Below the pieces are notes generated by a model. The model saw only the letters and a program-made list of their open reading frames with translations. It had not been told where the DNA came from and did not search any database. Both the position numbers and the translations under genes were made by a program. 35,916 nt of DNA, from positions 1 to 35,916 of the forward strand of contig JAAZPS010000148.1 of NCBI GenBank assembly GCA_012797095.1, written 5' to 3'. Below, piece after piece: positions 2,071 through 31,860 of this stretch (the stretch's first letter is position 1; each line of letters begins with the position of its first letter). The DNA comes from Bacillota bacterium. GTDB taxonomy: Bacteria; Bacillota; Dethiobacteria; DTU022.

Positions 2071-2138
2071 TCAGTATTTTACCTTGAATTGGTAGTGGAT
2101 GGAAACCAGGATTTCTTGGAAATTTTGACGTATGGCAG

Positions 2139-2487: not shown

Positions 2488-2511
2488 CAAATATTATTGG
2501 AGGTTATCGAA

Positions 2512-14456: not shown

Positions 14457-15692
14457 TTACTCTTTACCGAAAATATGCACCGCTGCAGCAGCCTCTTCAG
14501 TGCCGATAAACCCACCACCATTTTCGGTCAGGGCAATTTTGGCGCCCTCCACTTGTCTGGCTCCCGCTTCACCGCGAAGCTGGGTGATCACTTCGTAGAC
14601 CATGGCCAGACCGGAGGCGCCAATGGGGTGACCGCGGCATTCCAGCCCTCCGGATACATTTACCGGAATCCTGCCGCCCAAACGTGTTGCTCCCTCCTCG
14701 GCAAGCTGACCGCCCTTTCCTTCCGGGCAGAACCCCAGCACTTCGGTTTGCAGCAATTCCCCAAAGGCGGTGGCATCATGCACTTCGGCCACATCGATAT
14801 CTTCCGGCTCAACCCCGGCGATGGCGTAGGCTTTGCGGGATACGATCTTCCCGATATGATCTGTTTCCATCGGCCTCTCACGCCCGGTTCCGAGAACGGA
14901 GGCCATTATTTTTACAGCACGGTTTTTGCCTGCTTTGGCAAGATATCTTTCGGAGCAGATTACCGCTGCCGCTGCCCCGTCACCCACCGGCGAACACATT
15001 GACCGGGTAAAGGGATAGGCGATCGGTTTATCCTGGAGAACCTGATCAACGCTCATCTTTTTGCGGTACTGGGCATAAGGATTGAGGGCGCCGTGGTCAT
15101 GGTTTTTTGAAGAGATTATGGCTAACTGACGTTGGGTGCTTCCGTATTGACTCATATGCCAACGGGCGCCGAGGGCGTATATATCCATAAAAATACTGCG
15201 GCCCCCATCTGTTTCTGCTTCTTTTGGTATCTCCAGAGGTAAGCTATCGACCATCTGCATCAATTCCCCGATCTTTTTGGGGAACTCCTCGACATCCAGG
15301 CAGGAGGCGTAAGAGCGGAACGAAAGCATCTTGTCGGTATGGCTGATCTTCTCTGCGCCCAGCGCCAGAACAAGATCGTATTGCCCAGCCTTGACGGCCG
15401 TGTAGGCCAGGTTGAGCGCGGTTGAGGCACCCGCACAGGCATTTTCCGTATTGACAATCGGGATCTCCGTAATGCCGAGAGGGTGAAGCATCACCTGGCC
15501 GCGGATAGAATGCTGCTCACTGAACATGCCCCAGAAGGAATTGGAGACGTACGCAGCCTCCAGATTCTTGCTTTCTATTCCGGCATCTTCTAGGGCCTTC
15601 TCAAAAGCTTCCGCAGCAAGCTCCTTGACGGAACCTTCCAGGAATTTGCCGAACCTGGTCATCCCTACACCAATCACGTATACATTGCTCAT
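14457..15692 (-). CDS. Thiolase family protein (SCP-x / lipid-transfer type)
   Basis: NTENACAGASTALNLAY (nucleophile Cys), EVHDATAFGELLQTE, GGLECRGHPIGASG. Confidence 0.88.
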   Translation of the reverse strand: MSNVYVIGVGMTRFGKFLEGSVKELAAEAFEKALEDAGIESKNLEAAYVSNSFWGMFSEQHSIRGQVMLHPLGITEIPIVNTENACAGASTALNLAYTAVKAGQYDLVLALGAEKISHTDKMLSFRSYASCLDVEEFPKKIGELMQMVDSLPLEIPKEAETDGGRSIFMDIYALGARWHMSQYGSTQRQLAIISSKNHDHGALNPYAQYRKKMSVDQVLQDKPIAYPFTRSMCSPVGDGAAAAVICSERYLAKAGKNRAVKIMASVLGTGRERPMETDHIGKIVSRKAYAIAGVEPEDIDVAEVHDATAFGELLQTEVLGFCPEGKGGQLAEEGATRLGGRIPVNVSGGLECRGHPIGASGLAMVYEVITQLRGEAGARQVEGAKIALTENGGGFIGTEEAAAAVHIFGKE

Positions 15693-15715
15693 CTACTATC
15701 CCTCCGACAAATAAA

Positions 15716-16936
15716 TTATAGTTTTTCGCTGGCAAAAATAGCTAGGCTGTCGTTGGAACCGTCTTCGATCATGGAAGCACGCGCGTCACGGAAAAGTTTC
15801 TCAATGACATATTCCTTGGTTACGCCGTTGCCACCGAATATCTGAACAGCATCGCTGGCAATCTGGAAGGCAGCTTCGGTACAGAATATCTTGGCGACAA
15901 CGGAGTATTCAGTGGCCGGTGGTACGTTGGAAAGGTTGTAGTTGAGCGCTGCCCGTGAAAGGGCCCGGCAGGCTTCGATTGTCTTGAACATGTTAAAGAG
16001 CTTGAAGCGTACATGCTGATGTTCAAACAGAATCTTGCCCCCCTGGATCCTTTCCTTGGAGTATTTCAGGGCTTCCTCGTAAGCAGCCCGGGCTGCTCCG
16101 GTAAAGGTGGCGGCCATGTAGGCGTTGCAGGTCGCCAGGGTAATGTCGGTTATCGCTTCGTAGCTCTCCTGATCGATAAACATATATTCCTCAGGCACCC
16201 GGACGTTGTCAAAATAGATTTCGCCCTGATTCAGTTCTCTTTGGCCCATTTTGTTAAGAGGTTTCCCCCGGGAAACACCTGGTAGGTCAAGGGGGACCAG
16301 ACAGATCCCTCCACCGGACATGCCCATGGAAGGATCGATGGTCAGATAGACCATCGCATGGGTGGCGATGGTGCCGAGGGAGACCCAGGCCGCCTTTTGA
16401 CCGTTGATCACCCATTCCTCGCCTTCCCGGTGCGCTCTGCACATACCAGCGATACGGGGATCCTTGAACTGAGCGCTGCCTACGGCGAGGGCGTCTGAAC
16501 CATGATCCGGTTCGGTAATCGCCCAGCAGCCGATGATCTTTGCGTCGGTGTCCTCGCAAAAGGGAACCAACAGGTTCTCGATAAGGGTGTCGCTGGGCAC
16601 CAGCGAACCCAGGTAGGCAGGGAACTGGGCCAGCCCCAGGGCAATGCTAAGACCGGATGAACCATAGCCCAGCTCTTCCACGACGATGCTCACCTCAAGG
16701 GGAGAAAGACCCAGACCACCGTATTCTTCCGGGACCAGGGTCTTGTGCAGGCCCAGAGCGTACGCTTTTTTCAATGTATCCCATAAAATAGAGTCCGGGG
16801 CGATGACCTCTTCCGGGCTCAGTTCATCCAGCTTGATGCTGGCCGGTCGCAAGGTTTCAATGGCAAATCTGCGGACGGAATCTCTGAACATGATCTGTTC
16901 TTCGGTAACATTGGCATCCAATTCGAGATAGCTCAT
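15716..16936 (-). CDS. Acyl-CoA dehydrogenase
   Basis: LVPEEYGGLGLSPLEVSIVVEELGYG, GCWAITEPDHGSDA, QIFGGNGVTKEYVIEKLFRDARASMIEDGSND. Confidence 0.93.
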   Translation of the reverse strand: MSYLELDANVTEEQIMFRDSVRRFAIETLRPASIKLDELSPEEVIAPDSILWDTLKKAYALGLHKTLVPEEYGGLGLSPLEVSIVVEELGYGSSGLSIALGLAQFPAYLGSLVPSDTLIENLLVPFCEDTDAKIIGCWAITEPDHGSDALAVGSAQFKDPRIAGMCRAHREGEEWVINGQKAAWVSLGTIATHAMVYLTIDPSMGMSGGGICLVPLDLPGVSRGKPLNKMGQRELNQGEIYFDNVRVPEEYMFIDQESYEAITDITLATCNAYMAATFTGAARAAYEEALKYSKERIQGGKILFEHQHVRFKLFNMFKTIEACRALSRAALNYNLSNVPPATEYSVVAKIFCTEAAFQIASDAVQIFGGNGVTKEYVIEKLFRDARASMIEDGSNDSLAIFASEKL

Positions 16937-17020
16937 GATCTTTTATTCACTCCCAATTTAAAATGATGAAAAGCTCAGGGGAACAACAAATTAGCCTGTA
17001 GTTCTGGGGACTTCCCATGC

Positions 17021-17048
17021 TTCCGGGGAAAAAGGGTTTTGCCCGGAA
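17021..17048. repeat. Intra-operon hairpin between acyl-CoA synthetase and dehydrogenase genes
   Basis: ttccggg ... cccggaa in the 139-bp gap; no clear T run on the minus strand. Confidence 0.4.
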
Positions 17049-17075
17049 AGATTAGATTCAAGATCCTGCCGGGGA

Positions 17076-18686
17076 TCAAATGTAGTCCTTCACTGCGAAT
17101 ATTTCCCCCTTGCCTTGATTGAACATATCTCTTAAAACCCTTTCCAAAGGTTTTTCGGATATCGTTTTCGGCAGATCATCGAGCACCTGAAGATAGGAGG
17201 GGATAAAATTAGCGGTAAGCTCTTTTTTGCACTTTTCGTAGATTGAAGTGGGGTCGATTGTTTTATCCTTGAACGGGCTGATTGCGGCGACAATATCACT
17301 TTCTCCGGGAGCTCCGGAAGCAGCTGGAATACCGTAGACGCATACTTCGCTAACATCAGGGTGCTCTCCGATGATCTTTTCGATGTAATCCGGTTGGATG
17401 AAATCACCGGCCCGGCGTAGTTCAGTACCCTTTCGGTGATCGAAGTAGAACCACCCTTTTTCATCCCGGTGGACCATGTCACCGGTTCTGAGCCAGCCGC
17501 CTGCTGTCTTTTCCTTGGACTCTTCTGGCAGGCCCAGATAATCAACCTTTGTTTCCCCCCGGAGCATTCTGAAGATCAGCTCACCGGTAACCCCCGGATC
17601 AACCTCGTTGTCGTTCTCATCAACTACTTTCAGCTCCATGACGCCGGGTATCCCCTTGCCGAAAGAACCGATCGGCCCTTTGCCGGGAGGTTTGTACGCA
17701 AACCCGCCCTCAACCGAACCGTACCACTCAAGGATCTGAACAGCGAAACGTTCCTCAAAGGATTCCCAGATTGCTTTGGGGGTTCCGGCGCTGATCACGG
17801 TTTTGACAGGATTTTCGCTGTCATCGGGCCTGGATGGTTCGTTATAGATCGCAGCCATCATACCCCCGAGCAAAGAGAATGAAGTGCAGCCGTATTTGCG
17901 GCAGATATCCCAGATTCTACTTTTGGTGAACCGCTGGCTGAAAACTGCTGTGGTATCCGAGTACAGCGCAGGAAAAAGCGTCACTGCCTGGGCATTGCCA
18001 TGAGAAAACGAAAGCCCCGAATAAAGGATATCTTTCGGGCGGTATTTCCATACTATCTGAGTTAGAACGGAATAAAGACCGGTGCGGTTATTGCGGATCA
18101 TGACACCCTTGGGATCTCCTGTAGTCCCGGAGGTGTAGATGATCTGCATCGGATGACGGACATCCATGATCTTCTGTTCAACTTTATCCCAGTTATCCTG
18201 CTCTAAAATCTCGTTTAGAATCTCATATTTGGGTGACTGCTGGATCTCCTGTTCAGGAAAATAGGAAACAGCGATTGCCTTTACCTGGGTTAATTCGCTG
18301 GCGACCTCCTCCAGATCAGCAAGACATTCCCCGGAGCAGATCACTGCTTTGGCGGAGCTGTGGTTGATGATGAACTTTAGACGGTCCCCCTTGTAGCGGG
18401 GGTCTACGGGTACAGCGATTGCTCCAATGACGATACCGCCAAGCAGGGCATAGATAAATTCGGGGTGATTGCGCATATAAATGGCAAAATGATCCCCTTT
18501 GCCAATTCCCTGCTCGATCAACCAGCGGGCAATCTTGTTTGATCTTTCGTGAAGATCCTGGTAGGTGATCAGATCTTCTCCATATTCGCCCTTCTCAAAG
18601 ATGAAGATCGGTTTGTCTGGCGTCTGGTTTGCTTTTATCTCCACAAAATGAGAGGCGATGACCTGGTTCAGGTGGGCCTTAGCCAT
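17076..18686 (-). CDS. AMP-dependent acyl-CoA synthetase/ligase
   Basis: IIYTSGTTGDPKGVMIRN, EWYGSVEGGF, GWLRTGDMVHRDEKGWFYFDHRKG. Confidence 0.92.
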   Translation of the reverse strand: MAKAHLNQVIASHFVEIKANQTPDKPIFIFEKGEYGEDLITYQDLHERSNKIARWLIEQGIGKGDHFAIYMRNHPEFIYALLGGIVIGAIAVPVDPRYKGDRLKFIINHSSAKAVICSGECLADLEEVASELTQVKAIAVSYFPEQEIQQSPKYEILNEILEQDNWDKVEQKIMDVRHPMQIIYTSGTTGDPKGVMIRNNRTGLYSVLTQIVWKYRPKDILYSGLSFSHGNAQAVTLFPALYSDTTAVFSQRFTKSRIWDICRKYGCTSFSLLGGMMAAIYNEPSRPDDSENPVKTVISAGTPKAIWESFEERFAVQILEWYGSVEGGFAYKPPGKGPIGSFGKGIPGVMELKVVDENDNEVDPGVTGELIFRMLRGETKVDYLGLPEESKEKTAGGWLRTGDMVHRDEKGWFYFDHRKGTELRRAGDFIQPDYIEKIIGEHPDVSEVCVYGIPAASGAPGESDIVAAISPFKDKTIDPTSIYEKCKKELTANFIPSYLQVLDDLPKTISEKPLERVLRDMFNQGKGEIFAVKDYI

Positions 18687-18710
18687 TTAAATCCTCCTTT
18701 TGTACCTTGC

Positions 18711-19361
18711 TCAGTCCTCGATGGCCCCGATAAAACCTCTGGTGTATGTGGGAAACTCCTTTTCAAAGATCTCATCCCAGTACTCATCGGTCCAGAACTG
18801 GTGACGATCAAAATAGGGGTCTCTTTTCGCGGCACTTACGGATAAAGTGACAACTATATCAACATCCTCGATGACCTCCAAAGCGCGAGCGCCAAAAGCC
18901 AGGGTGCTAAAAACACGGCTGTACAATCCCAGACGGTAGGCTGCGGCAGCAGCTGCGTTGGCAGCTATGTTCAGATTAAGGTTTTTGAACTGGCAGCTGG
19001 GCCCTTCCGCCATCAGCGATTCTGTTGGCTCGGCTAGATTAAGCTCTTTGCAGGTGCGGAAACCGCAGGCGCCACAATTGTAATTGAAGGGCGACTTGCG
19101 GGTGTCTCCAAAAATGATAAGGGCGCTTGGTTCTTTAATCAGCTCCATCACATGACGCCCGTCCCTTGCTGCCAAGGGGGACATATCGGCCATGGAATAG
19201 CCAAACTGGGCGATCTCTTCCATCTCTTCCTTGCCGGCTACAACGATCTTCAATGTATTTCGTCCTTCAAACCGGTAGCTGTTGTGGGCGGCCAGTACGA
19301 TTAGCTCTATAGCGCGGTCAAATCCCCTCTGGACCAGCTCTTCCATCTCCAAGATGGCCAT
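18711..19361 (-). CDS. DUF2148 (ferredoxin-domain) protein
   Basis: CGACGFRTCKELN...GPSCQFKNLNLNIAANAAAAAAYRLGL: CxxCGxxxC plus distal Cys, one-cluster motif. Confidence 0.75.
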   Translation of the reverse strand: MAILEMEELVQRGFDRAIELIVLAAHNSYRFEGRNTLKIVVAGKEEMEEIAQFGYSMADMSPLAARDGRHVMELIKEPSALIIFGDTRKSPFNYNCGACGFRTCKELNLAEPTESLMAEGPSCQFKNLNLNIAANAAAAAAYRLGLYSRVFSTLAFGARALEVIEDVDIVVTLSVSAAKRDPYFDRHQFWTDEYWDEIFEKEFPTYTRGFIGAIED

Positions 19362-19394
19362 GATTTACCTCCTTTACCGGATAAGTTTATTCGG

Positions 19395-20066
19395 TTAACT
19401 GTAGATCGACCTGAATTGCGGCCAGAGACGCTTGATGATCCGATCAGTCATGGTCCGTTCATTTATTTCATCATATTTTTTGGGGATATCCCGGAATGGG
19501 CTTTTTTCAGTGATCGAGATAGCAACCGCCAGAGCCAGGCCGGTCTCCCGGGGGAGCAGCCTCATCCTCATGGCTGCTGCACCGGCCGACCAGAAAACAC
19601 CGTAGTCAATCCCCAGATTCCTGGCCAGTGTGATAACTCCGTCCAATGCGTAGGCAATATTGTTTGCCCGGAAAATACAGAGAGGGCCAGGGAAAGCGAT
19701 CCTGTTATCACTCGGCAGCCTTTCTGCTTCCCGCAAATTATCGCAAACCAGATGACCGCACATGTTACAGTTAATGTCTGACGGATCGTTTTTGCTGCGT
19801 AGAGAAGTGATCAGCAGCAGAGCATCGGCATCTCGCATCATCATGGCGTCCCGTTTGAAAAACCCCCAGCCTTCATTATCCCCGGCCATATCCTCCACGG
19901 CCTGGCAGAGATCCTCGATCTCACATTCATCATCGATGATATGGACGGTGCACTCACCAACTCCACCAACCCGTGGGGTGGTGGTCGCTGAAGCCAACAG
20001 TAGCCTGGCGGCAATCTTGGCCGCTTCCTTGCGGTCCTTTTCGAACTGTTTCAAAGGCCTTTCCAT
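19395..20066 (-). CDS. DUF2148 (ferredoxin-domain) protein, paralog of neighbour
   Basis: CNMCGHLVCDNLREAERL...GPLCIFRANNIAYALDG: same CxxCGxxxC...C layout. Confidence 0.75.
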   Translation of the reverse strand: MERPLKQFEKDRKEAAKIAARLLLASATTTPRVGGVGECTVHIIDDECEIEDLCQAVEDMAGDNEGWGFFKRDAMMMRDADALLLITSLRSKNDPSDINCNMCGHLVCDNLREAERLPSDNRIAFPGPLCIFRANNIAYALDGVITLARNLGIDYGVFWSAGAAAMRMRLLPRETGLALAVAISITEKSPFRDIPKKYDEINERTMTDRIIKRLWPQFRSIYS

Positions 20067-20096
20067 ATCAATTGGTCTCCTTTATAGTCATGTGAT

Positions 20097-20486
20097 CTAC
20101 AAAATGCCGTGTTTTTTTGCAATATCGGGGTATATTTCGTAGGCAGGCTTGAGCAAGGGCAGCAGATTTAGCACCTTTGGCATGGGACCTTTTGCCTTGA
20201 TCGCTCTTTTGGCCAGGGCTACCGGCATTTTGATCTTCTGCAGCCAGAATTGATGGCAGGTATCTCCGCTTAAAGTCATCTCCACGGTGGGTTTATCATC
20301 GTGTTCCCCGCAGACAATCTGACCGTCGCTGCATAGCCAGATATAACCTTCCGGATCGCTTATATTGAATTTGATGGTAATTCCTGATTCGAGGTATTTT
20401 GGCCCCACATCGGGGTTATCGAGCAGAGCATGAAAAAGATCACCGAGAACCTCGTACATTTTTTGCGTGCTTTCAAAGATAGCCAT
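20097..20486 (-). CDS. SCP2 sterol-binding-domain protein
   Basis: 129 aa; SGITIKFNISDPEGYIWLCSDGQIVCGEHDDKPTVEMTLSGDTCHQFWLQKIKMPVALAKRAIKAKGPMPKVLNLLP fits an SCP2 fold. Confidence 0.8.
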   Translation of the reverse strand: MAIFESTQKMYEVLGDLFHALLDNPDVGPKYLESGITIKFNISDPEGYIWLCSDGQIVCGEHDDKPTVEMTLSGDTCHQFWLQKIKMPVALAKRAIKAKGPMPKVLNLLPLLKPAYEIYPDIAKKHGIL

Positions 20487-21021: not shown

Positions 21022-23088
21022 ATGGGCAAGCAGCCTGGATCGGTGGGAATGAGATCTGGCTTTAACAGGGAATGGCGCCGACTGATATCCCCTGATATCG
21101 GAATCTGTGATCTCTGTGCGGCAGAGATTGCCGACAGGAGCAGCAGGCGCTACCGGTACGCTTTCACCAGCTGTCCGGATTGCGGTGCGCGCTTTACGCT
21201 TGCCGGCGAAGGAACGTGCGGCTGCGGGGAAACCGGCCCCGGACCGGTTCAGTGTCCTGATTGTCGGCGGGAGTATGCGGATCCTTCCAGCAGGCGGTTC
21301 CGGTGGCCATTCAGCTCCTGTCCTGTTTGCGGGCCGCAGCTTGCCTTTTACAGGGCCGGAGAGAAGCAATGCGGAGATCCCCTGGCGTTGTTCGATCAGC
21401 TGATCCGGGAAGGTGGAATTGTCGCGGTCAAGGGACTGGGGGGGTATCATCTGGCCGGCGATGCCCGGAACGAGGCGACAGTAGCAAGGTTGAGGAAAAA
21501 CAAGCTGCGCTATGAGAAACCCTTTGCCGTGATGATGCGCGATATCGAGACGGTTAAGCGGTTCTGCCGGCTGGACGCTGCCGAGGAAGCTCTTCTCCGA
21601 TGCGCCGAAAAACCGATCGTGCTCCTTCAAAAGAGGGAGAGCTGCGCGGTAGCCCGGGAGACTGCACCGGGCTGTACCAGGTTGGGGGTGATGCTTCCGT
21701 ACACGCCGCTTCACTGCCTGATCATGGAAAAAAATGATCTGCTGATCATGACAAGCGCCAATCGATGCGATTGCCCGACGATCTATGACGATGACGAGGC
21801 GATGGCCACTCTTTTTGATCTGGCGGAGGCGGTGTTGACACACGACCGGAAGATCGTTCGCCGGATGGATGACAGCGTCTGCCTGGTCGGGGCAGGAAGG
21901 AGGCGGCTGATCAGGCGGGCGCGGGGGTATACCCCGGTGCCGCTGCCCCTGAAAGGCGGCAGCGGGGTGGTGCTGGCCCTGGGGGCGCAGCAAAAAAACA
22001 CCTTCTGCCTGGCCATGGGGGAAAAGGCTTTCCTGAGCGCTCATCTGGGCGATCTGGATGAGCCGGAAAATGAAAGATTCCATGAATCGGAGATACAGTC
22101 GTATCTGCGGTTGTTTGACGCCAGGCCGGAGGCGATTGTCCGGGATCTGCATCCCGACTATGTTTCTACGAGGATTGCCGGTCGTTTCAAAAACAGGCTA
22201 CCGATATATCAGATCCAGCATCACCATGCGCATTTCGCCTCTGTCCTGGCGGAGCATCAGCTGACCGGGAACGCCATTGGGTTGATCTTCGACGGCACCG
22301 GATATGGCGAGGACGGTACCCTGTGGGGCGGTGAAGCCCTCTGGGGGGATATCACCGGGACCGAACGGTTCGGGCATATGCTCCAGGCACCGCTTCTGGG
22401 CGGCGAAGCCGCCATTCGCGAGCCCTGGCGGATGGCCCTGGCGATGCTCAGCATCTCCTGCGGGAAAGCCGCCGCAATGGATCATTTTCAGGAATACGGT
22501 GATCAGGCGGGGCTGTTGCTGCAAGCGGGTGAGCGGAGAATCAATGCGCCGCTGACATCGGGGGCGGGGCGATTATTTGATGCTGTGGCTGCCCTTACCG
22601 GCGTCCGGACCGAGACAACATATGAAGGGCAGGCGGCTATTGAACTCGAGCAGGTGATCGATGATGGAGCAGGGGGAAGCTACGGTTTTGAGATCATCCG
22701 GGAAGAAGGAAGGCTCATCTTTGATTGGCGCCAGCTGATCCGCGATCTCGTTCGCGACCTCGGCAAAGGCTGCAGCAGGGGCGCAATGGCGGCCAGGTTT
22801 CACCGCGCCGTGGTGCAGCTGCTGGTGGATCTTTCACTTCTGGCCAGAAAGGAATATGCTTGCAGCAGGGTTGTCCTTTCCGGGGGTGTCTTTCAGAATG
22901 CGTATCTGCTCGACCATGGGTTTGCCGGACTGCAGAGAAAGGGCTTTACCGTTTATGCCAATGAAAAGGTTCCGGCAAATGATGGGGGGATATCTTACGG
23001 CCAGGCTGCGGCGGTGTCGCGGTTGATCGGGATGAATCATGATCCTTTGAGGGTCAGGAACCGGGAAATGGATGGAGGTGACCGGTAA
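21022..23088 (+). CDS. hypF: Carbamoyltransferase HypF, apparently without N-terminal acylphosphatase domain
   Basis: Zn-finger CDLCAAEI...CPDCGARF...CPDCRREYADPSSRRFRWPFSSCPVCGP, YrdC-like GGIVAVKGLGGYHLAGDA, Kae1-like HHHAHFASVLAEH and VVLSGGVFQN. Confidence 0.92.
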   Translation: MGKQPGSVGMRSGFNREWRRLISPDIGICDLCAAEIADRSSRRYRYAFTSCPDCGARFTLAGEGTCGCGETGPGPVQCPDCRREYADPSSRRFRWPFSSCPVCGPQLAFYRAGEKQCGDPLALFDQLIREGGIVAVKGLGGYHLAGDARNEATVARLRKNKLRYEKPFAVMMRDIETVKRFCRLDAAEEALLRCAEKPIVLLQKRESCAVARETAPGCTRLGVMLPYTPLHCLIMEKNDLLIMTSANRCDCPTIYDDDEAMATLFDLAEAVLTHDRKIVRRMDDSVCLVGAGRRRLIRRARGYTPVPLPLKGGSGVVLALGAQQKNTFCLAMGEKAFLSAHLGDLDEPENERFHESEIQSYLRLFDARPEAIVRDLHPDYVSTRIAGRFKNRLPIYQIQHHHAHFASVLAEHQLTGNAIGLIFDGTGYGEDGTLWGGEALWGDITGTERFGHMLQAPLLGGEAAIREPWRMALAMLSISCGKAAAMDHFQEYGDQAGLLLQAGERRINAPLTSGAGRLFDAVAALTGVRTETTYEGQAAIELEQVIDDGAGGSYGFEIIREEGRLIFDWRQLIRDLVRDLGKGCSRGAMAARFHRAVVQLLVDLSLLARKEYACSRVVLSGGVFQNAYLLDHGFAGLQRKGFTVYANEKVPANDGGISYGQAAAVSRLIGMNHDPLRVRNREMDGGDR

Positions 23089-23306
23089 TGTGCCTGGCCA
23101 TACCGGGGCGAATTATCGGGATCAAGGACGGCTTCGCCGAGATAGATTACAGCGGTGTATCCAGGAGGGCCAGCTTGAGGCTGATGGAATCCGCGGCAGT
23201 GGGTGACTTTGTGCTCGTGCACGCCGGCTTTGTCATCCAGGTTCTCGATGAGGATGCCGGCCTGGAGCTCGAACAGCTGATCGAGGAAATGATCAATGAA
23301 ATCTAG
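23088..23306 (+). CDS. hypC: Hydrogenase assembly chaperone HypC
   Basis: MCLAIPGRIIGI N-terminus, 72 aa, in hyp cluster. Confidence 0.95.
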   Translation: MCLAIPGRIIGIKDGFAEIDYSGVSRRASLRLMESAAVGDFVLVHAGFVIQVLDEDAGLELEQLIEEMINEI

Positions 23307-24381
23307 AGGAGCTGCGATCAAGGAAAGGCTGGCCAGGCTGGCAGAAGCCGTGGGTCAGGTCACGATCATGGAGGTATGCGGCACCCATACGGCCAATATC
23401 CGCAGGTTCGGGATCCCGGATCTTCTTCCCGATACTATCAGGCTGATATCCGGTCCCGGCTGCCCTGTATGTGTGACCCCGCAGCAGGATATTGCTGCAG
23501 CGCTTTTCCTGGCAGAGCGGAAGGGGATTATCTTTACTACCTTCGGAGATATGATGCGGGTGCCCTGCGGCGAGAGAAGTCTCTATTCACTCTACGAGCA
23601 GGGGAAAGATCTACGCATCGTCACATCGCCCCTGGATGCTTTGCGCATGGCGCGGGAGAATCCGCAGGCGCAGGTGGTCTATTTCGGGATCGGCTTTGAA
23701 ACAACGGCTCCGCTGACCGCTGCTCTGGTGGAGGCGGCAGATGAATGCGGGGTGCAGAATCTGAGCGTATTGTCGGTGCACAAAACTGTACCGCAAGCGC
23801 TGAGACAGCTCCTGAAAAGCGGCAGCAAGATCGATGCGCTGCTCTGCCCGGGGCATGTTGCCGCAATCATCGGGGCAAGGGGATTCTCCTTTGTGCCGGA
23901 TCAGCTGATGCTGCCCGCGGTTGTGGCCGGGTTCGAGGCCGATGATATTGTGGCGGCGCTTTTTGGCATCATTCAGCTGCTGCGTAAGGGCGAAACCAGA
24001 TGTGTCAATATGTATCCGCGCGCGGTGACAGAGGCCGGGAACAGGGAAGCGCTGTCGCTCCTGAACAAGGTGTTCGAACCCTGCGATGCCAGGTGGCGCG
24101 GGCTCGGGGAGATCGAGGGGAGCGGACTTCGCCTGAAAGGACGCTACAAACAGTTTGATGCCGCCCTCAGGTTCGAAATCAAGGCAGACGAGATCGAAGA
24201 AGCAAAAAATTGTATCTGCGGCCGGATCCTGTGCGGCGAGAGGGTACCGGCGGATTGCCTGAATTTCGGTACGGCCTGTACCCCGGATCGGCCGTTGGGT
24301 GCGTGTATGGTCTCAGCGGAGGGCACCTGTGCAGCCCACTATCGTTACGGAGGCGACAATAACGGATGCAAAGAAGAATAA
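23296..24381 (+). CDS. hypD: Hydrogenase formation protein HypD
   Basis: MEVCGTHTANIRRFGIPDLLPDTIRLISGPGCPVCVTP, YFGIGFETTAP, CPGHVAAIIG. Confidence 0.96.
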   Translation: MKSRGAAIKERLARLAEAVGQVTIMEVCGTHTANIRRFGIPDLLPDTIRLISGPGCPVCVTPQQDIAAALFLAERKGIIFTTFGDMMRVPCGERSLYSLYEQGKDLRIVTSPLDALRMARENPQAQVVYFGIGFETTAPLTAALVEAADECGVQNLSVLSVHKTVPQALRQLLKSGSKIDALLCPGHVAAIIGARGFSFVPDQLMLPAVVAGFEADDIVAALFGIIQLLRKGETRCVNMYPRAVTEAGNREALSLLNKVFEPCDARWRGLGEIEGSGLRLKGRYKQFDAALRFEIKADEIEEAKNCICGRILCGERVPADCLNFGTACTPDRPLGACMVSAEGTCAAHYRYGGDNNGCKEE

Positions 24382-25364
24382 CGCTTGCTCATGGTTCGGG
24401 TGGGGAAGCGCAGGAAGAGCTGATCCGGGAGCTGTTTTTGCCGGCGTACTCCAATGAGATGCTCCGGCCCCTGACCGATTCGGCCATCTGCCGTGCGGGT
24501 GAGAAGATTGCGATGACCACCGACAGCTTTGTTGTCAAACCGCTATTCTTTCCCGGGGGCGATATCGGCAGACTCAGCATCAGCGGAACGGTAAACGATC
24601 TTGCCGTCAGCGGGGCCTGCCCAAGGTATATCTCGGTCGGGATGATCATCGAAGCGGGTTTCCGGATGGACAGCCTTGCGCGGATAGTCGAATCAATGGC
24701 CGGGACAGCAAAAGAGGCCGGTGTTTATATCGTCACCGGCGATACCAAAGTGGTCGAGGGGGGGGCAGCCGACGGTATCTTCATCAATACGGCCGGAATC
24801 GGTCTGTTTACAGACGGGAGGGAGCCCCTTGCTCAAAAGATAGCTCCGGGAGATCGGATCATCGTCAGCGGAGCCATCGCTTCACACGGGATGGCGGTTA
24901 TGGCGGCGCGCGAAAATCTGGATTTCAAACCGCCCATTGAAAGCGATGTCGCCCCTGTTGCGGCAATGGTGGAAAAAGTATTGCAGCAAGATGGTGTGAT
25001 CAATGCAATGCGCGATCCCACGCGGGGTGGAGTGGCGGCCACTTTGAATGAATGGGTTGGCCCGGATACCGATATCATTATTGATGGGCAGTCATTGCCG
25101 GTACGGGCAGATGTGGCTGCAGCGTGCGCTATTCTGGGAATGGATCCGCTGTACATTGCCAACGAGGGGGCCGTGCTTTTATCCGTACCCCACCGATACG
25201 CGGATACGGTGTTGCAGGCGCTGCACTCCGCTGACCTTGGCAGAAGTGCAGCAATTATCGGGGAGGTCAAGAAAGGCCGCGGCAACCTGTATCTTCTCAC
25301 GGAATACGGCACACATAGAAAGATCACGATGCCGCGGGGGGAACTTCTCCCGAGAATCTGCTGA
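24366..25364 (+). CDS. hypE: Carbamoyl dehydratase HypE
   Basis: LAHGSGGEAQEELI, MTTDSFVVKPLFFPGGDIG, DPTRGGVAATLNE, C-terminal PRIC. Confidence 0.96.
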   Translation: MQRRITLAHGSGGEAQEELIRELFLPAYSNEMLRPLTDSAICRAGEKIAMTTDSFVVKPLFFPGGDIGRLSISGTVNDLAVSGACPRYISVGMIIEAGFRMDSLARIVESMAGTAKEAGVYIVTGDTKVVEGGAADGIFINTAGIGLFTDGREPLAQKIAPGDRIIVSGAIASHGMAVMAARENLDFKPPIESDVAPVAAMVEKVLQQDGVINAMRDPTRGGVAATLNEWVGPDTDIIIDGQSLPVRADVAAACAILGMDPLYIANEGAVLLSVPHRYADTVLQALHSADLGRSAAIIGEVKKGRGNLYLLTEYGTHRKITMPRGELLPRIC

Positions 25365-25894: not shown

Positions 25895-27307
25895 ATGGAA
25901 AGCAGTATCATGCTCATATGCATTTGTGTTCCGTTGTTCGGTGCTTTTCTTCTTCCGGTTTTAGGCTTGATCAATACAAATTTAAGAAACCTGGCTGCGC
26001 TGGCTTTCACGGCTACCGCTTTTTTATGCGCAGCGCTTGCTTTGCCCGAGGTGCTTGCCGGATCGCCTCTCTTCCTTCATTATGAATTGCCCCTGGGTCT
26101 GAGTTTCGGTTTTTACGCAGATTCCCTTGCCGTATTTATGGCCTTGACCTCCTCCCTTGTAGCCACCGTTATCGTGATCTATTCATTTGAATATATCATG
26201 GAGTACGGCAATCAAAACGAATACTACATGATGGTCTGCCTCTTTATCGGTGCGATGATGGGACTGGTCTTTTGCACAAATCTTATCTTCATCTATATAT
26301 TCTGGGAGATATCTGCGATCTGCTGCTGGAGACTGATCGGTTTTTATCGCGAGGAGATCACGGTAAGCCGGGCCAACAAGGCTTTTATCGTAACGGTTGT
26401 CGGGGCGCTGATCATGCTGATCGGGTTTGTCGGGATCTATGGACAAACGGGTACCTTTGATCTGGTTGCGATGAAAGGCACCCATATCCCCGTATGGATG
26501 GTTGTCCTGATCTTGTTCGGGATACTGTCGAAATCTGCAACCTTTCCCCTGCATAACTGGTTGCCCGATGCAGGGGTGGCCCCCTCGCCGGTAACTTCGC
26601 TTCTGCACGCAGCGGTGCTTGTGAAGATCGGTGTTTATATGTATGCGCGGCTATTTGTCATCAATCTGAATGTCGATACTGTCTTCACCGTTGCCGTGCC
26701 GGTTATTGCTGCGGTCAGCGCTCTGGTCAGTGCGGGGGTAGCCTTGAGCTCGAATGATATCAAGCGGATCATCGCTTATTCCACCATCAGTCAACTGGCC
26801 TTTATTCTACTGGGGCTGTCCTGCGGCAGCAAGATCGGAGTCCTCGGGGCGATGCTCTATATTCTGATGCACAGCGTGGCCAAGGGCGGTCTCTTTCTCT
26901 GCGCGGGCATTGTCGAGCATAACCTGCACACCAAGGATATCACCAAGATGGGCGGATTATACAAACAGATGCCCGTGACAGCTTTTGCCTTTGCCTTCTG
27001 CGCTTTCTCGGTGATGGGGATCCCCCCGTTTGGCGGTTTCTTTGCCAAATATCTGGTGATCAATGGGATTGTATCTGCGGGCAATGTTGCGCTTGCCGCT
27101 GTTTTTATCATCGGCGCGATCATGACGATCCTCTATCTGCTCAGGCTTTTCGTGAAGGTATTTCTGGGCCAAACCGTCTCCGAAGTCAGGGAGGGGACCC
27201 CGCTGATGGTCGGATCGGTGCTGCTGCTTGCGCTGCTCTCCGCTGCCCTGGGGATATTTATCAATATGCCGTCGGGTTTTGCATCGCTGATCGGGGGGGG
27301 TATTTAA
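25895..27307 (+). CDS. Antiporter-like proton-translocating subunit (NuoL/M/N / MrpD family) of group 4 hydrogenase
   Basis: FWEISAICCW, KSATFPLHNWLPDAGVAPSPVTSLLHAAVLVKIGVY, IKRIIAYSTISQLAFI. Confidence 0.88.
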   Translation: MESSIMLICICVPLFGAFLLPVLGLINTNLRNLAALAFTATAFLCAALALPEVLAGSPLFLHYELPLGLSFGFYADSLAVFMALTSSLVATVIVIYSFEYIMEYGNQNEYYMMVCLFIGAMMGLVFCTNLIFIYIFWEISAICCWRLIGFYREEITVSRANKAFIVTVVGALIMLIGFVGIYGQTGTFDLVAMKGTHIPVWMVVLILFGILSKSATFPLHNWLPDAGVAPSPVTSLLHAAVLVKIGVYMYARLFVINLNVDTVFTVAVPVIAAVSALVSAGVALSSNDIKRIIAYSTISQLAFILLGLSCGSKIGVLGAMLYILMHSVAKGGLFLCAGIVEHNLHTKDITKMGGLYKQMPVTAFAFAFCAFSVMGIPPFGGFFAKYLVINGIVSAGNVALAAVFIIGAIMTILYLLRLFVKVFLGQTVSEVREGTPLMVGSVLLLALLSAALGIFINMPSGFASLIGGGI

Positions 27308-29173
27308 ATGCTGAACTCCATCTTTCTATTTCTGGGCAGCGGGGCAAATATCATCTGGTTTCTGGTCGTATTGCCTGCTGCTGTTGGAATTGTTCTGCGC
27401 CTTTTCAACAGGTCCTACCTTCCGGGAATGCTTTTGGCCCTGCTGTCCGCGGTGTTCAATCTTCTGCTGGCGGTAAGTCTTTACCGATCGGAAGGAATCG
27501 AGCTGCTATTTCCCTTCTCCTCGGGCGGCCTGGATATTGCCCTGAGGATCGATGGGTTCTCCTCGATGTTCCTGCTGTTTGTCGCCGCCGGTTTTTTGCT
27601 GATAACCCTGTACAGCGTTGTCTTTTTGAAAGGGAAAGGTTACAGCGGCATCTTCATGCTCTATATGTTCATCAGCCTGGCGATGATCAATGGTGCGCTG
27701 ATGTCGGATAATCTGGGGGTAATGCTCTTTTTCTGGGAGGGCCTTCTGTGCACCCTTTTCGGAATCCTGCTGATCAACAATATGCACAGTCCCAAAGCTG
27801 CAGTAAAAGCGCTCACCCTGGCCGGCACAGCCGATCTTTTGCTGATGCTGGGGATCATCGTCACTGCAACCCAGTCCGGCACCCTTTATATGAGCCAGAT
27901 GCAGAAGCTGCCCGTTACCGGCATATCCGCCGTCGGGTTTATCTGTATGGTGCTGGGCGCTGTCGGCAAGGCCGGCAGCATGCCTTTCCACAGCTGGATC
28001 CCCAATGCGGCGGACGATGCTCCGACTCCCTTCATGGTTGCATTCCCCGCAGCCCTGGAAAAATTCCTGGGAATCTATCTGGTGGCGCGTATCGTTCTGG
28101 AGATCTACGACCTTCGGCCGGGGAGCGGGGCAAGTGTTGCCGTGATGACCATCGGAACGCTCACCATCGTTCTGGCGGTGGCGATGGCCTTGATCCAGAA
28201 AGATATGAAACGGCTGCTTTCCTACCATGCCATCAGCCAGGTTGGCTATATGGTTCTGGGTCTGGGCACGGCGCTGCCTGTGGGTATCGTCGGCGGACTG
28301 TTCCATATGCTCAATCATGTGATCTACAAAAGCTGCCTTTTCATGACGGCGGGCAGCGTGGAGATACAGACCGGGACGACAGACCTTCGAAAAATTGGCG
28401 GGTTGGGCAGAAAGATGCCCCTTACCATGGTCTGTTTCATCATCAGCGCCCTGGCTATTTCGGGGGTGCCGCCTTTGAACGGATTCTTTTCCAAGGAGCT
28501 TGTTTTTGATGCGGCACTGGAAAGCAACGTCATCTTCTATCTGGGCGCTCTGCTCGGTGCGTTCCTGACCGCCATCTCATTCCTCAAACTGGGTCGGGCG
28601 GCATTCAGCGGAGAGATGCAGTTTCCACCGGAGAAAAAAGATCTTCATGAATCAAGCACCGGCATCCTGTTGCCGATGGGTGTTCTGGCGGTATTGTGTG
28701 TCCTTTTCGGGGTGGTCAACCGGTTGCCGCTGGATCGCATTCTGGGTCCGGCGCTGGGCGATGGGGGAATTTACTCGGGATGGCCGCACTCCACCGTGCT
28801 GGTGGTGATCTCCGTTGCTGTGCTGCTGCTTTCCCTGGGCGATCATCTTTACGGAAACAAAAGATCCGGAAGCGCCCTCGGCGCAGCCGATCATATTCAT
28901 TATGCTCCGGTGCTGAAAGAGATCTATCAGGCAGCCGAAAGGAAGCTGTTCGATCCCTACAACTGGCTGATCTCTGCAGCGAAGGGTCTGTCTGCTCTGG
29001 CTGTCTCTATCGAGAACGGGATAACCTGGCTCTATGACGACGGCGTTGTGGCGGTGGTAAAGGGAGCAGGCAATATGATGCAGCGCTTCAGCGACGGGAA
29101 CCTGTCGCGTTATCTGATCGTGGCCCTGACCGGTGTCGTGGGGCTGATCATCCTTTTTCTGATAGCTGTCTAA
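27308..29173 (+). CDS. NuoL-like antiporter subunit of group 4 hydrogenase
   Basis: FFWEGLLCTLFGIL, GKAGSMPFHSWIPNAADDAPTPFMVAFPAALEKFLGIYL, MKRLLSYHAISQVGYMVLGLG; C-terminal extension with final TM segment. Confidence 0.88.
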   Translation: MLNSIFLFLGSGANIIWFLVVLPAAVGIVLRLFNRSYLPGMLLALLSAVFNLLLAVSLYRSEGIELLFPFSSGGLDIALRIDGFSSMFLLFVAAGFLLITLYSVVFLKGKGYSGIFMLYMFISLAMINGALMSDNLGVMLFFWEGLLCTLFGILLINNMHSPKAAVKALTLAGTADLLLMLGIIVTATQSGTLYMSQMQKLPVTGISAVGFICMVLGAVGKAGSMPFHSWIPNAADDAPTPFMVAFPAALEKFLGIYLVARIVLEIYDLRPGSGASVAVMTIGTLTIVLAVAMALIQKDMKRLLSYHAISQVGYMVLGLGTALPVGIVGGLFHMLNHVIYKSCLFMTAGSVEIQTGTTDLRKIGGLGRKMPLTMVCFIISALAISGVPPLNGFFSKELVFDAALESNVIFYLGALLGAFLTAISFLKLGRAAFSGEMQFPPEKKDLHESSTGILLPMGVLAVLCVLFGVVNRLPLDRILGPALGDGGIYSGWPHSTVLVVISVAVLLLSLGDHLYGNKRSGSALGAADHIHYAPVLKEIYQAAERKLFDPYNWLISAAKGLSALAVSIENGITWLYDDGVVAVVKGAGNMMQRFSDGNLSRYLIVALTGVVGLIILFLIAV

Positions 29174-29195
29174 AGGAAGGAGGAATCATCGTTCA

Positions 29196-30659
29196 ATGGG
29201 AGTTCTCGAGTACAGCGCAGCCCTATTTTTCTTCATCCCCCTGGCGGTCGTTCTGGTAAACACGTTATCCTCCAGACTGTCGGCCGAGAAAGTGAGCATG
29301 CCCCTGGCCGGCGGGGCGGCGACCGTTCAGATTGCCGCCGCTGCAGCATCCCTTGCGGTGCTTTCGTGCAATCACCTGAGGGGATACGGGTTTTGCCTTT
29401 TTCAGAATATGGCCGGTGCCGGCTCGGTGCACCTGGCGGTAAATACCTTTTCGCTGATCATCCTGCTCTGTATCGGGCTGGTTTCACTGGCCTCTGTTCT
29501 GGTGGCCAACCGGACCGTGGATAAAAAAAGAGCGTCATACGTCAATTTGCTGATGATGTTGATCCTGGGGATGAACGGGATGGTCATGGTGACCGATCTC
29601 TTTTCGCTGTATGTTTTTCTGGAGATCATCGGCATATCCAGCTTTGTTTTGATCGCCATGTTTAAAACGGATCTCGGGCTTGAAGGCGCGTTCAAATATC
29701 TGGTGATGTCTGTCCTGGCCAGCATCATGATCCTGACCGGGCTTTCGTTCATCTTCATGCAGACCGGGAGCCTGCAGTACGCGCAGCTGGGGCTGCATGT
29801 TCCCGCCGGACCGGGCGGGGCCCAATTGTTCTTTATCTATGCAGCCCTGATCCTGATGATCGCCGGCTTTGCCATAAAAACAGGAGTGGTTCCTTTTCAC
29901 AGCTGGTTGCCGGACGCGCATCAAAGTGCAAATACAGCCGTGTCCGTACTTTTGAGCGGTATCGTGATCAAGGTGGCCGGCGTGTACGGTTTCATTGTCT
30001 TGACCGGATTGTTCCACGAGCTGCCTGCCATCGGGATCACTTTGGCTGTGATGGGGACTGTCTCTATTATTATCGGTGCCCTGTTTGCCCTGCGGCAAAA
30101 CCATTTCAAGCGTATTGTGGCCTACTCGAGCGTGAGCCAGATGGGGTACGTTCTGCTCGGTCTGAGCACAGGCAGCACTCTCGGGCTGCTGGGGGCCGTA
30201 ATTCATGTGTTCAACCATGCCACCTTCAAAAGCACGTTGTTTACCAACGCCGCCGCAGTGAAAGAGCAAACGGGGACATACGATCTTGACGAACTGGGTG
30301 GGCTGGAAGAGAGGATGCCGGTAACAGGTTTTTCAACCCTGGCCGCATTCATGTCCACGGCGGGGATCCCGCCTTTTGCCGGGTTCTGGAGCAAGCTATT
30401 GATCATTATCGCCCTGTGGAGCAGCGGTTTGCAATCATTTGCGGCAATTGCTCTTTTCGCCAGCATTCTCACTGCCGCTTATTTCCTGCGGCTGCACAAG
30501 AAGGTGTTCTTCGGCAAGGTGCTCGATAAATTTACGGAATTGTCCGAGATTGGCGGCAGCATAAAAATTGCCCAGCTCATGCTTACTGTCGTCACGATTG
30601 CAACGGGACTGTTCTTCCCGGTAGTGCTTCTCTTTCTCAGAAAAATCGGAATACTTTAG
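29196..30659 (+). CDS. Third antiporter-like subunit (NuoN/M / MrpD-like) of group 4 hydrogenase
   Basis: YVFLEIIGISSFVLI, KTGVVPFHSWLPDAHQSANTAVSVLLSGIVIKVAGVYG, FKRIVAYSSVSQMGYVLLGLS. Confidence 0.88.
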   Translation: MGVLEYSAALFFFIPLAVVLVNTLSSRLSAEKVSMPLAGGAATVQIAAAAASLAVLSCNHLRGYGFCLFQNMAGAGSVHLAVNTFSLIILLCIGLVSLASVLVANRTVDKKRASYVNLLMMLILGMNGMVMVTDLFSLYVFLEIIGISSFVLIAMFKTDLGLEGAFKYLVMSVLASIMILTGLSFIFMQTGSLQYAQLGLHVPAGPGGAQLFFIYAALILMIAGFAIKTGVVPFHSWLPDAHQSANTAVSVLLSGIVIKVAGVYGFIVLTGLFHELPAIGITLAVMGTVSIIIGALFALRQNHFKRIVAYSSVSQMGYVLLGLSTGSTLGLLGAVIHVFNHATFKSTLFTNAAAVKEQTGTYDLDELGGLEERMPVTGFSTLAAFMSTAGIPPFAGFWSKLLIIIALWSSGLQSFAAIALFASILTAAYFLRLHKKVFFGKVLDKFTELSEIGGSIKIAQLMLTVVTIATGLFFPVVLLFLRKIGIL

Positions 30660-30673
30660 AGGAGGGCGGGGCT

Positions 30674-31162
30674 GTGGATGCCGTTGTCTCTATTTGCCTG
30701 GGTCTGATGTTTATCTTCGGCGTTTGGGCGGTTATCTCTCGCAGCATGCTGAAATCCGCCATCGCTCTGGCCGTTGCCAGTGCGGTGCTCGCCGTTATAA
30801 TGTACCAGCTTGATTCTATCTGGGCGGCAATGTTCGAGCTTTCGGTCTGCTCGGGACTGATCACGGTTATCTTTATCAGTGCCATCAGCCTGTCCCGGAC
30901 AGACAAGGAGGAGCTGGAGGAACTTTACGAGAACAAGAAACGGATGGCTTATTTGCCTGCAGTTCTGATCATCAGCGGGGTTGTGCTGATGTTGGTGGTA
31001 ACTTCACAGAATTTTTCCATGCCGGCAGCTGTCCCTGCGGTGGTCGGGGATACCTTCCGTGAAGTATTGTGGACCCACCGTCAGGCAGATCTCTGGGGCC
31101 AGATCATCGTGGTCATCACCGGTGCGCTTACCGTCGTGGCCCTATTCAAGGAGCGTGAGTGA
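30674..31162 (+). CDS. NuoJ/MnhB-like membrane subunit
   Basis: Multi-TM; MFELSVCSGLITVIFISAISL and DLWGQIIVVITGALTVVALFKERE resemble NuoJ/MnhB-like proteins; position before the NuoK-like gene. Confidence 0.6.
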   Translation: MDAVVSICLGLMFIFGVWAVISRSMLKSAIALAVASAVLAVIMYQLDSIWAAMFELSVCSGLITVIFISAISLSRTDKEELEELYENKKRMAYLPAVLIISGVVLMLVVTSQNFSMPAAVPAVVGDTFREVLWTHRQADLWGQIIVVITGALTVVALFKERE

Positions 31163-31475
31163 TTTGAACCCATTCGTCGAGACGAGCGTACTCGTGGTGG
31201 GGTTGATGTTGATCGTGGCCGGCTGTTATTGCCTCATCCGGACATATCATCTGCTGAAGATCATCATCGGTATAGAGGTGGCGATGAAGGCGGTCTCCAT
31301 GTTCATCATTCTCGCCGGGTTTATTAACGGACAGAACGCTCTTGCACAGACATTTGTCATTACGGTGATCGTCATCGAGGTGGTCCTGGCCGTGGTTGCG
31401 GTGGGGATAGCGATCAATCTTTACCGTAATTACGGAGATATGGATATCCGCAATCTGAGAAAATTGAAAGGATAA
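31155..31475 (+). CDS. NuoK/MnhC-like membrane subunit
   Basis: LLKIIIGIEVAMKAVSMFIIL and QTFVITVIVIEVVLAVVAVGIAINLYR, with conserved Glu in TM2 and TM3. Confidence 0.75.
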   Translation: MSDLNPFVETSVLVVGLMLIVAGCYCLIRTYHLLKIIIGIEVAMKAVSMFIILAGFINGQNALAQTFVITVIVIEVVLAVVAVGIAINLYRNYGDMDIRNLRKLKG

Positions 31476-31487
31476 GGGTGCTGACCG

Positions 31488-31808
31488 ATGAGCGAACTGA
31501 TCTACTCGCCCCCCATTGTATTTCTGATCTTCATGGTTATCTCGCTGGCCCTCTCCCGGCTGTTTTCGCTATATTCCTATCAAAACCCGCAAAGGGATCA
31601 TGGGTTGGACGCCTATGCCTGCGGTGAGCGCAATGTGCGGCATTATATCAATCCTGATTACAGCCAGTTTTTCCCCTTCGCCTTTTTTTTCACGATCATG
31701 CATGTTCTGGCCCTGGTGGTGGCAACAGCACCTTACGAAGCGCTGCTGCTGCCCCTTGGCTATGTTGCTGCCGGGGTGCTGGCGATGGTCATCATATTCA
31801 AAAATTGA
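31488..31808 (+). CDS. NuoA-like membrane subunit
   Basis: 106 aa, three TM segments, loop DHGLDAYACGERN resembling NuoA YECG loop. Confidence 0.6.
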   Translation: MSELIYSPPIVFLIFMVISLALSRLFSLYSYQNPQRDHGLDAYACGERNVRHYINPDYSQFFPFAFFFTIMHVLALVVATAPYEALLLPLGYVAAGVLAMVIIFKN

Positions 31809-31860
31809 GTGAAAAAAGGCGAAGTTATCAGTAAATAAATTATCAAGGGGTGGTAATGCT

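Follow-up and report, generated by a model that had tools for sequence, protein, structure and literature searches.

Described systems close to the locus reported here include the ACAD-ETF-DUF224 butyrate route of Syntrophomonas wolfei (PMC3582634), where ACAD denotes acyl-CoA dehydrogenase, and, for its last gene, the thiolase-like aldolases Sal and Ltp2 (PMC12329534). The window analysed, a stretch of 35,916 nucleotides from a Bacillota bacterium of the Dethiobacteria, carries an acyl-CoA operon that includes two tandem genes for DUF2148 proteins. No mention of DUF2148 or COG4739 was found in the literature searched.

Gene content and conservation of the operon

Six intact ORFs occupy positions 14457 to 20486 of the window on the minus strand, in the order SCP2, DUF2148a, DUF2148b, acyl-CoA synthetase, ACAD and thiolase (Table 1). 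A ribosome-binding site (GAAGGGAG) lies 5′ of the SCP2 gene and, following the direction of transcription, successive genes are separated by 30, 33, 24, 139 and 23 bp. The initial annotation, which had described six co-directional genes with short gaps, was thus accurate, as was its statement that the window lacks genes for ETF, enoyl-CoA hydratase and 3-hydroxyacyl-CoA dehydrogenase, none of which is found among the 30 ORFs scanned. Because the latter two enzymes are missing from these ORFs, the cluster does not constitute a complete beta-oxidation operon. A search with defence-system models yielded no match.

Table 1. Positions of the operon genes and of selected sites in the window
Feature	Coordinates	Strand	Evidence
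SCP2-domain protein, 129 aa, operon gene 1, likely lipid/acyl binding	20097..20486	-	PF02036 E 6e-5, just above cut-off
DUF2148a, 223 aa, with a predicted nitroreductase fold and an Fe-S motif insertion	19395..20066	-	PF09918 E 1.7e-18, AF2, Foldseek, hhalign
DUF2148a four-cysteine motif (C100, C103, C108, C130), predicted [4Fe-4S] site	19677..19769	-	Invariance and spacing
DUF2148b, 216 aa, second predicted nitroreductase-fold/Fe-S protein, without RSxR/RSxK N-terminus	18711..19361	-	PF09918 E 4.6e-18, AF2, Foldseek, hhalign
DUF2148b four-cysteine motif (C96, C99, C104, C123), predicted [4Fe-4S] site	18993..19076	-	Invariance; PF04060 sub-threshold
AMP-forming acyl-CoA synthetase, 536 aa	17076..18686	-	PF00501 E 8e-70, PF13193
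Acyl-CoA dehydrogenase, 406 aa	15716..16936	-	PF02771/PF02770/PF00441 (N, middle and C domains all found)
ACAD catalytic-base position, Asp392 (IEDG)	15761..15763	-	Alignment; MCAD-type has Glu (IYEG)
SCP2-thiolase-like thiolase, 411 aa	14457..15692	-	PF22691 E 3e-39, PF00108
Thiolase position 307, Ala in HDAT	14772..14774	-	Alignment; SCP2-thiolases have HDCF Cys

A nearly unchanged version of this cluster recurs in at least six bacterial phyla. Of 54 loci that are long enough, 49 retain the full six-gene order, and 58 of 60 long loci retain the order of the first five genes, with six phyla represented in each case. Because the same order is retained in so many loci across six phyla, the arrangement is not due to chance, and the candidate module that the initial annotation regarded as undescribed is indeed a recurrent one. 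In related loci, an SCP2 orthologue (52-81% identical) immediately precedes DUF2148a, and 38 of 74 have an SDR gene after the operon; an extended form of the operon adds both TetR and SDR genes. Desulfosarcina widdelii PP31, a species available in culture, also has the complete operon (locus L071).

Besides gene content and conserved order, co-inheritance of the operon genes is shown. Every member of the six-gene set has a distance matrix correlated with the others (r 0.58-0.88), exceeding all permutations, with the strongest correlation between DUF2148a and DUF2148b (0.88). The DUF2148 proteins co-vary more closely with the synthetase (0.83-0.86) than with the ACAD (0.62-0.64). DUF2148a is the most conserved member, with a median identity of 72% versus 58% for the ACAD and 59% for the thiolase, which suits an enzyme under constraint.

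An unselected sample of 148 Desulfobacterota genomes contains 20 tandem DUF2148 pairs, and most of those with adequate flanks adjoin ACAD and/or thiolase genes. The neighbourhood survey that the initial annotation had called for thus finds DUF2148 pairs recurrently linked to ACADs, rather than the lack of linkage that it had named as counting against its proposal. Several pairs, however, accompany thiolase/DUF35 or AOR genes without an ACAD, and divergent pairs have thiolase, DUF35, SDR, AOR or PaaK-like ligase genes as neighbours, with the ACAD missing in some. Unlike the tandem pairs, single DUF2148 genes show no consistent association with ACADs. Their neighbours include TrpB-like and purine genes, and the ACADs present in five loci lie a few kb away and are ordinary IYEG enzymes; the attempt to read a function for single-copy DUF2148 from such neighbours was therefore abandoned.

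Two further candidates were set aside. A suspected DUF2148b-SDR gene fusion (locus L194) was no more than an open frame lying 5′ of the gene. The other candidate was a downstream group 4-type hydrogenase complex as a possible partner for ferredoxin; in L032, L034 and L035, the three further genomes compared whose upstream flank is long, that side carries other genes.

Fe-S motif and predicted fold of the DUF2148 pair

Although DUF2148a and DUF2148b are only 24% identical, both are clear members of the DUF2148 family (PF09918), with scores of 65.4 and 66.8 bits against a Pfam gathering cut-off of 25 bits. The CxxCGxxxC...C arrangement reported in the initial annotation is present in both proteins as C-x2-C-G-x3-C followed by G-P-x-C. 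Spacing to the fourth cysteine (x21 in DUF2148a, x18 in DUF2148b) is near-constant over about 70 homologues of each. All four cysteines are invariant in 55 DUF2148 sequences at the DUF2148a site, and are likewise invariant for DUF2148b. Both proteins therefore have the four cysteines of a PF04060-type [4Fe-4S] site (C-x2-C-x4-C-xn-C). The suggested likeness to the Fe-S domains of CODH/ACS and RnfB is borne out by a single-copy DUF2148 protein that exceeds the PF04060 cut-off, while DUF2148b falls below it (E 0.001).

A sequence search of solved structures with DUF2148 gave no meaningful match. The AF2 models of DUF2148a (pLDDT 88, pTM 0.85) and DUF2148b (pLDDT 88, pTM 0.82) were compared with known structures by using Foldseek. 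Every top match for DUF2148a has a nitroreductase fold and the best match for DUF2148b is the nitroreductase 3gfa, at moderate TM-scores of about 0.4-0.6. Profile alignment with hhalign also matched nitroreductases to DUF2148a (probability 90%, E 1.7e-6) and DUF2148b (83%), versus 0.1% for a negative control, and a divergent DUF2148 relative gives a weak direct match to PF00881. From these models and profiles, both proteins are predicted to adopt an FMN nitroreductase fold into which a PF04060-type four-cysteine motif is inserted. Nitroreductase folds typically catalyse flavin redox chemistry.

The FMN-binding motifs are incomplete. In the nitroreductase references, R10, S12 and R14 are invariant and N41 is nearly so. 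The N-terminus of DUF2148a (RPLKQF/RSxKQF) resembles the nitroreductase FMN-phosphate motif, and RSxK is present in most DUF2148a sequences, with Ala or Lys replacing the motif Arg in some type-1 members. DUF2148b and single-copy members carry no such N-terminal motif, and neither the full RRSxR nor the FMN-contact Asn is conserved in DUF2148.

Companion enzymes with altered catalytic positions

The synthetase, which attains no NCBIfam equivalog, has FATP2, oxalyl-CoA synthetase and FadD5 as solved relatives. The catalytic positions of the other two enzymes are altered family-wide. The best solved relatives of the ACAD are 1ukw and MCAD, but Asp replaces the MCAD-type catalytic Glu, giving IEDG in 64 of 72 aligned ACADs; five of the remainder are ordinary IYEG enzymes from contigs with a single DUF2148 gene. 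We considered whether this Asp is a signature unique to DUF2148 operons and rejected the idea, because the same genome encodes an IPDG ACAD and a second IEDG-type ACAD, the latter adjoining an enoyl-CoA hydratase gene on a 6-kb contig that carries no DUF2148 gene. Retention of the GGLGL segment, part of the MCAD ETF-docking patch, varies within the family, and this feature was set aside.

The thiolase scores below every NCBIfam cut-off, and its best solved relatives are SCP2-thiolase 6hsj, archaeal acetoacetyl-CoA thiolase 6esq and BbsB 7pxp. It retains the nucleophile Cys86 and the GHP His355. However, the acid/base Cys of the HDCF motif that is characteristic of SCP2-thiolases is changed to Ala (HDAT) in 58 of 60 aligned thiolases. 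A retained nucleophile Cys combined with a missing HDCF Cys sets the operon enzyme apart from SCP2-thiolases and also from Sal and Ltp2 (PMC12329534).

Proposed role, alternatives and relation to known systems

The explanation that we favour, with slightly less than even confidence, is that the operon spreads horizontally as a cassette whose products break down bulky or branched acyl-CoA anaerobically, with a heterodimeric Fe-S/(flavin) DUF2148 oxidoreductase adding a redox step. Breakdown would be the main role, with remodelling of acyl-CoA possible instead. SCP2 may bind a hydrophobic acid or its CoA ester, and the synthetase would activate the acid; kinship of SCP2 and the thiolase suggests a bulky or branched substrate, possibly an isoprenoid or sterol. 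The ACAD and the thiolase-like enzyme would perform beta-oxidation-type chemistry, with the hydroxyacyl step provided by SDR dehydrogenases, whose genes adjoin the operon in other genomes. The two DUF2148 proteins would most likely assemble into a [4Fe-4S] heterodimer with a nitroreductase fold, probably with a flavin, putatively FMN, at the DUF2148a site. This pair may carry out an extra redox step, linked to ferredoxin, in which the substrate or its CoA thioester is the target, while ACAD electrons would still go to ETF.

A broader and more tentative proposal is that DUF2148 pairs represent a new class of heterodimeric nitroreductase-fold Fe-S/flavin oxidoreductases, which might use acyl-CoA intermediates directly as substrates or accept electrons from Asp-type ACADs, within an undescribed anaerobic lipid pathway common to sulfate reducers, syntrophs, Dehalococcoidia, spirochaetes and acidobacteria.

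The initial annotation had instead placed the pair in the position of ETF, as the dedicated acceptor for the ACAD whose [4Fe-4S] clusters pass electrons to ferredoxin or another carrier. Strict linkage to the ACAD in the type-1 operon, the absence of an ETF gene from it, the lack of a detectable ETF in two of 47 operon carriers and the predicted Fe-S and likely flavin centres are all consistent with this idea, but we consider it unlikely. The genome encodes one ETF pair, clustered with genes for HdrA-like and cysteine-rich Fe-S proteins, and ETF is detected in 45 of 47 operon carriers, the other two being draft genomes of unknown completeness. Because of these ETFs, the pairs that occur without an ACAD and the stronger co-variation with the synthetase, replacement of ETF is unsupported; the second IEDG-type ACAD, with no DUF2148 gene nearby, also argues against it. 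A redox role as such remains plausible, and is strengthened by the predicted nitroreductase fold.

It is similarly improbable that the pair is itself a cycle enzyme with a non-canonical reaction (e.g. enoyl-CoA hydration/dehydration, isomerisation or reduction), in which its Fe-S cluster would act as Lewis acid or radical centre and the altered ACAD and thiolase would serve a different C-C cleavage sequence. The operon without an enoyl-CoA hydratase, the high conservation of DUF2148a and a thiolase that keeps its nucleophile while losing the HDCF Cys would fit such chemistry. However, the genome has seven enoyl-CoA hydratase matches elsewhere, and flavin redox chemistry is the norm for nitroreductase folds. 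Least probable is a beta-oxidation cluster of the ordinary kind, with the pair as an accessory for cofactor insertion, regulation or redox sensing: the housekeeping neighbourhoods of single-copy DUF2148 genes do indicate that the fold is not confined to lipid chemistry, but the pair is invariant, fixed in order and highly conserved over six phyla.

With its predicted flavin-enzyme shape, the DUF2148 pair points to an undescribed redox step. DUF2148 thereby becomes the subject of a testable hypothesis, in which a nitroreductase fold and an Fe-S cluster are combined, paired and fixed in an acyl-CoA operon, and D. widdelii PP31 offers a cultured carrier for such tests. Should the pair indeed catalyse a novel redox reaction of bulky acyl-CoAs, this would help to explain how recalcitrant lipids, among them isoprenoid, branched and sterol-derived acids, are oxidised anaerobically in sediments and digesters.

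Among known systems, ETF (PF01012) is analogous to the proposed heterodimeric redox protein near an ACAD, but DUF2148 has a different predicted fold and no PF01012 match, and coexists with a genuine ETF. The S. wolfei route shares the syntrophic Bacillota context and the clustering of ETF genes with Fe-S oxidoreductase genes, but, as described, it has neither a DUF2148 pair nor SCP2 nor a thiolase of the SCP2 type (PMC3582634). SCP2-thiolase, BbsB, Ltp2 and Sal are the closest solved kin of the operon thiolase, which keeps the nucleophile Cys and GHP His; the operon enzyme differs in its HDCF position and in having no DUF35 partner in the operon. The FMN nitroreductase superfamily (PF00881; 3gfa, IYD, BluB and the FbiB C-terminal domain) shares the predicted fold of both DUF2148 proteins, with the AP(S/R) loop and C-terminal half in register in profile alignments and an RSxK-like N-terminus in DUF2148a. 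Unlike these enzymes, the DUF2148 proteins fall below the Pfam cut-off, have incomplete FMN-binding motifs, probably form a heterodimer and contain the inserted four-cysteine motif. That motif matches the C-x2-C-G-x3-C-xn-C layout of the PF04060 domain, which in CODH/ACS and RnfB sits in a ferredoxin-chain or corrinoid protein, whereas in DUF2148 it lies inside a predicted nitroreductase fold.

Recurrence of the six-gene operon

ORF reading and Pfam searches reveal that all six genes of the operon, including the two tandem DUF2148 genes (DUF2148a and DUF2148b), are intact, with intergenic gaps of 30, 33, 24, 139 and 23 bp in gene order. Promoter-like and terminator-like sites in this region are no more frequent than in shuffled sequence. 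As the initial annotation stated, none of the 30 ORFs scanned in the window was identified as an ETF, an enoyl-CoA hydratase or a hydroxyacyl-CoA dehydrogenase. The host is a draft genome (2.16 Mb; completeness 94%, contamination 5.1%) whose nearest named relatives are MAGs of Bacillota, Clostridia and Syntrophomonadaceae, and the operon's two DUF2148 genes are its only ones. Elsewhere in the window, the phage integrase region is likely a mobile element, because it lies beside a helicase fragment in a stretch of 42-43% G+C, versus 50-63% elsewhere.

Features of the window and of related loci (G000, host genome)
Feature	Location	Strand	Content
Six-gene operon	14457-20486	-	SCP2, DUF2148a, DUF2148b, AMP-forming acyl-CoA synthetase, acyl-CoA dehydrogenase (ACAD), thiolase
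Tyrosine-type phage integrase	2648-4183	+	
hypF-hypD-hypE-like genes	21022-25364	+	HypF frame begins at profile position 92, without the N-terminal acylphosphatase part
Energy-converting Mbh/Ech-like membrane [NiFe] hydrogenase-type complex	25895-35905	+	Three Mrp antiporter-like, MbhD-like, NuoK-, NuoB-, NuoC-, NuoD/NiFe- and NuoH-like subunits, 4Fe-4S protein, HycI protease
EtfBA cluster	L206 (G000:C61)		HdrA-like, MvhD-like, further Fe-S subunits, GlpC/HdrD-like cysteine-rich protein (by inspection)
Second IEDG-type ACAD of host	L208 (G000:C367), 1288-3885		53% identical to operon ACAD; divergent from enoyl-CoA hydratase gene
Divergent version of the module, one gene run	L036, 7917-17856		PaaK-like ligase, DUF2148 pair, SCP2, PurM/AIRS-like protein, ACAD, SDR, DUF35, thiolase, ferredoxin, aldehyde:ferredoxin oxidoreductase N-terminal-domain protein

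Across 60 relatives, DUF2148 is mostly found as one short gene. Tandem pairs (~220 aa each) with the identical six-gene order are present in genomes G001, G013 and G042, and G007 retains this order as far as the contig end, where the ACAD gene is interrupted. Divergent pairs in G042 and G003 also have SCP2, ACAD, thiolase and a PaaK-like ligase alongside. When the DUF2148a alignment was used to query GTDB genomes, 74 loci were found; where the flanks are sufficient, all six genes occur in order at 49 of 54 loci and the first five at 58 of 60. A TetR gene lies upstream at 34 of the 74 loci, an SDR downstream at 38 and an epimerase-like SDR downstream at 22.

Carriers, as named, come from Bacillota, Desulfobacterota (including the isolate Desulfosarcina widdelii PP31), Spirochaetota, Chloroflexota/Dehalococcoidia, Acidobacteriota and Actinomycetota, though a few of these names may stem from misbinned contigs. 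In the majority of the phyla, DUF2148a shares 67-79% identity with its counterpart in the window (51-53% for Actinomycetota), which suggests that the operon spread horizontally.

Genomic settings of DUF2148 pairs

To escape the bias of the DUF2148a query, the whole family was searched in 148 Desulfobacterota genomes. DUF2148 is present in 37 of these, with 20 tandem pairs: seven in the full operon, one in a rearranged operon (L193) and 12 others, which are longer. ACAD is near four of the longer pairs (L195, L196, L199, L203) and thiolase near six (L198, L199, L200, L202, L204, L205), several also with DUF35; L201 has synthetase-like and AOR-like neighbours, and the contigs of L194 and L197 are short. 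No ACAD lies within ~7 kb or more on either side of L198, L201 and L205. Single-copy DUF2148 genes adjoin TrpB-like and purine genes. From these neighbourhoods, DUF2148 pairs are tied to CoA-thioester metabolism; the recurrent linkage to ACADs expected earlier is thus frequent, at operon loci and four longer pairs, but not constant. One 8.9 Mb Desulfobacterota genome (G181) holds six divergent pairs (L198-L203) in differing thiolase/DUF35/SDR/AOR/PaaK settings, a natural set for function assignment.

Predicted fold and possible role of the DUF2148 pair

From alignments built here, AlphaFold2 modelled both proteins at pLDDT 88, with pTM 0.85 for DUF2148a and 0.82 for DUF2148b. FMN-dependent nitroreductase-fold entries are the best Foldseek matches of DUF2148b and make up the matches listed for DUF2148a. 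Independent support comes from hhalign against nitroreductases of related genomes (DUF2148a-centred profile: 160 columns, probability 90%, E 1.7e-6; DUF2148b: 83%; ACAD as negative control: 0.1%). The four-cysteine motif interrupts the nitroreductase fold between its second strand and its long helix. The proposed kinship of this motif with CODH/ACS- and RnfB-type domains agrees with an above-cut-off PF04060 Fe-S domain in a single-copy member. The DUF2148a N-terminus, RSxKQ(F/Y)E, resembles the nitroreductase RSxR motif; DUF2148b and single-copy members lack it, which makes a single flavin per heterodimer a reasonable guess. As far as the literature searched shows, the conserved cassette and this nitroreductase/Fe-S assignment are undescribed.

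Our leading, still tentative, reading is that DUF2148a/b would form a heterodimeric Fe-S/flavin oxidoreductase adding a redox step on a bulky acyl or acyl-CoA substrate, while ETF would take the ACAD electrons. The initial annotation had instead suggested that the pair could stand in for ETF. Several findings argue, though not decisively, against such replacement: the host has a single ETF pair, ETF is found in 45 of 47 operon carriers, co-variation of DUF2148 is stronger for the synthetase (r 0.83-0.86) than for ACAD (0.62-0.64), and some pairs are ACAD-free. A dedicated ACAD electron acceptor is unlikely. Equally improbable is a non-canonical catalyst of the missing step, and an accessory role is less probable still.

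Comparison with known enzymes

In the host, the ETF genes lie together with genes for HdrA-like and cysteine-rich Fe-S proteins, named by sequence inspection, an arrangement of a similar kind to the ETF-DUF224 route known from Syntrophomonas wolfei (PMC3582634). The products could form an ETF-Hdr complex of bifurcating or confurcating type.

Apart from DUF2148, the operon enzymes come from known families and show changes at catalytic positions. By alignment, Asp392 of the operon ACAD occupies the catalytic-Glu position of MCAD-type enzymes, and IEDG is conserved in 64 of 72 aligned ACADs. ACADs adjoining divergent pairs likewise carry Asp where the motif is legible, and those on single-DUF2148 contigs carry IYEG. 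Asp-type ACADs are not exclusive to DUF2148 operons, since the host's second IEDG enzyme adjoins an enoyl-CoA hydratase gene without DUF2148. The operon thiolase retains the nucleophile Cys86 and the GHP His355, and HDAT replaces HDCF in 58 of 60 aligned thiolases. In SCP2-thiolases, the HDCF cysteine is the proposed proton donor to the acyl-CoA enolate; in aldolases such as Sal it is the nucleophile cysteine that is missing (PMC12329534). Having kept the latter residue and lost the former, the operon thiolase fits neither pattern.
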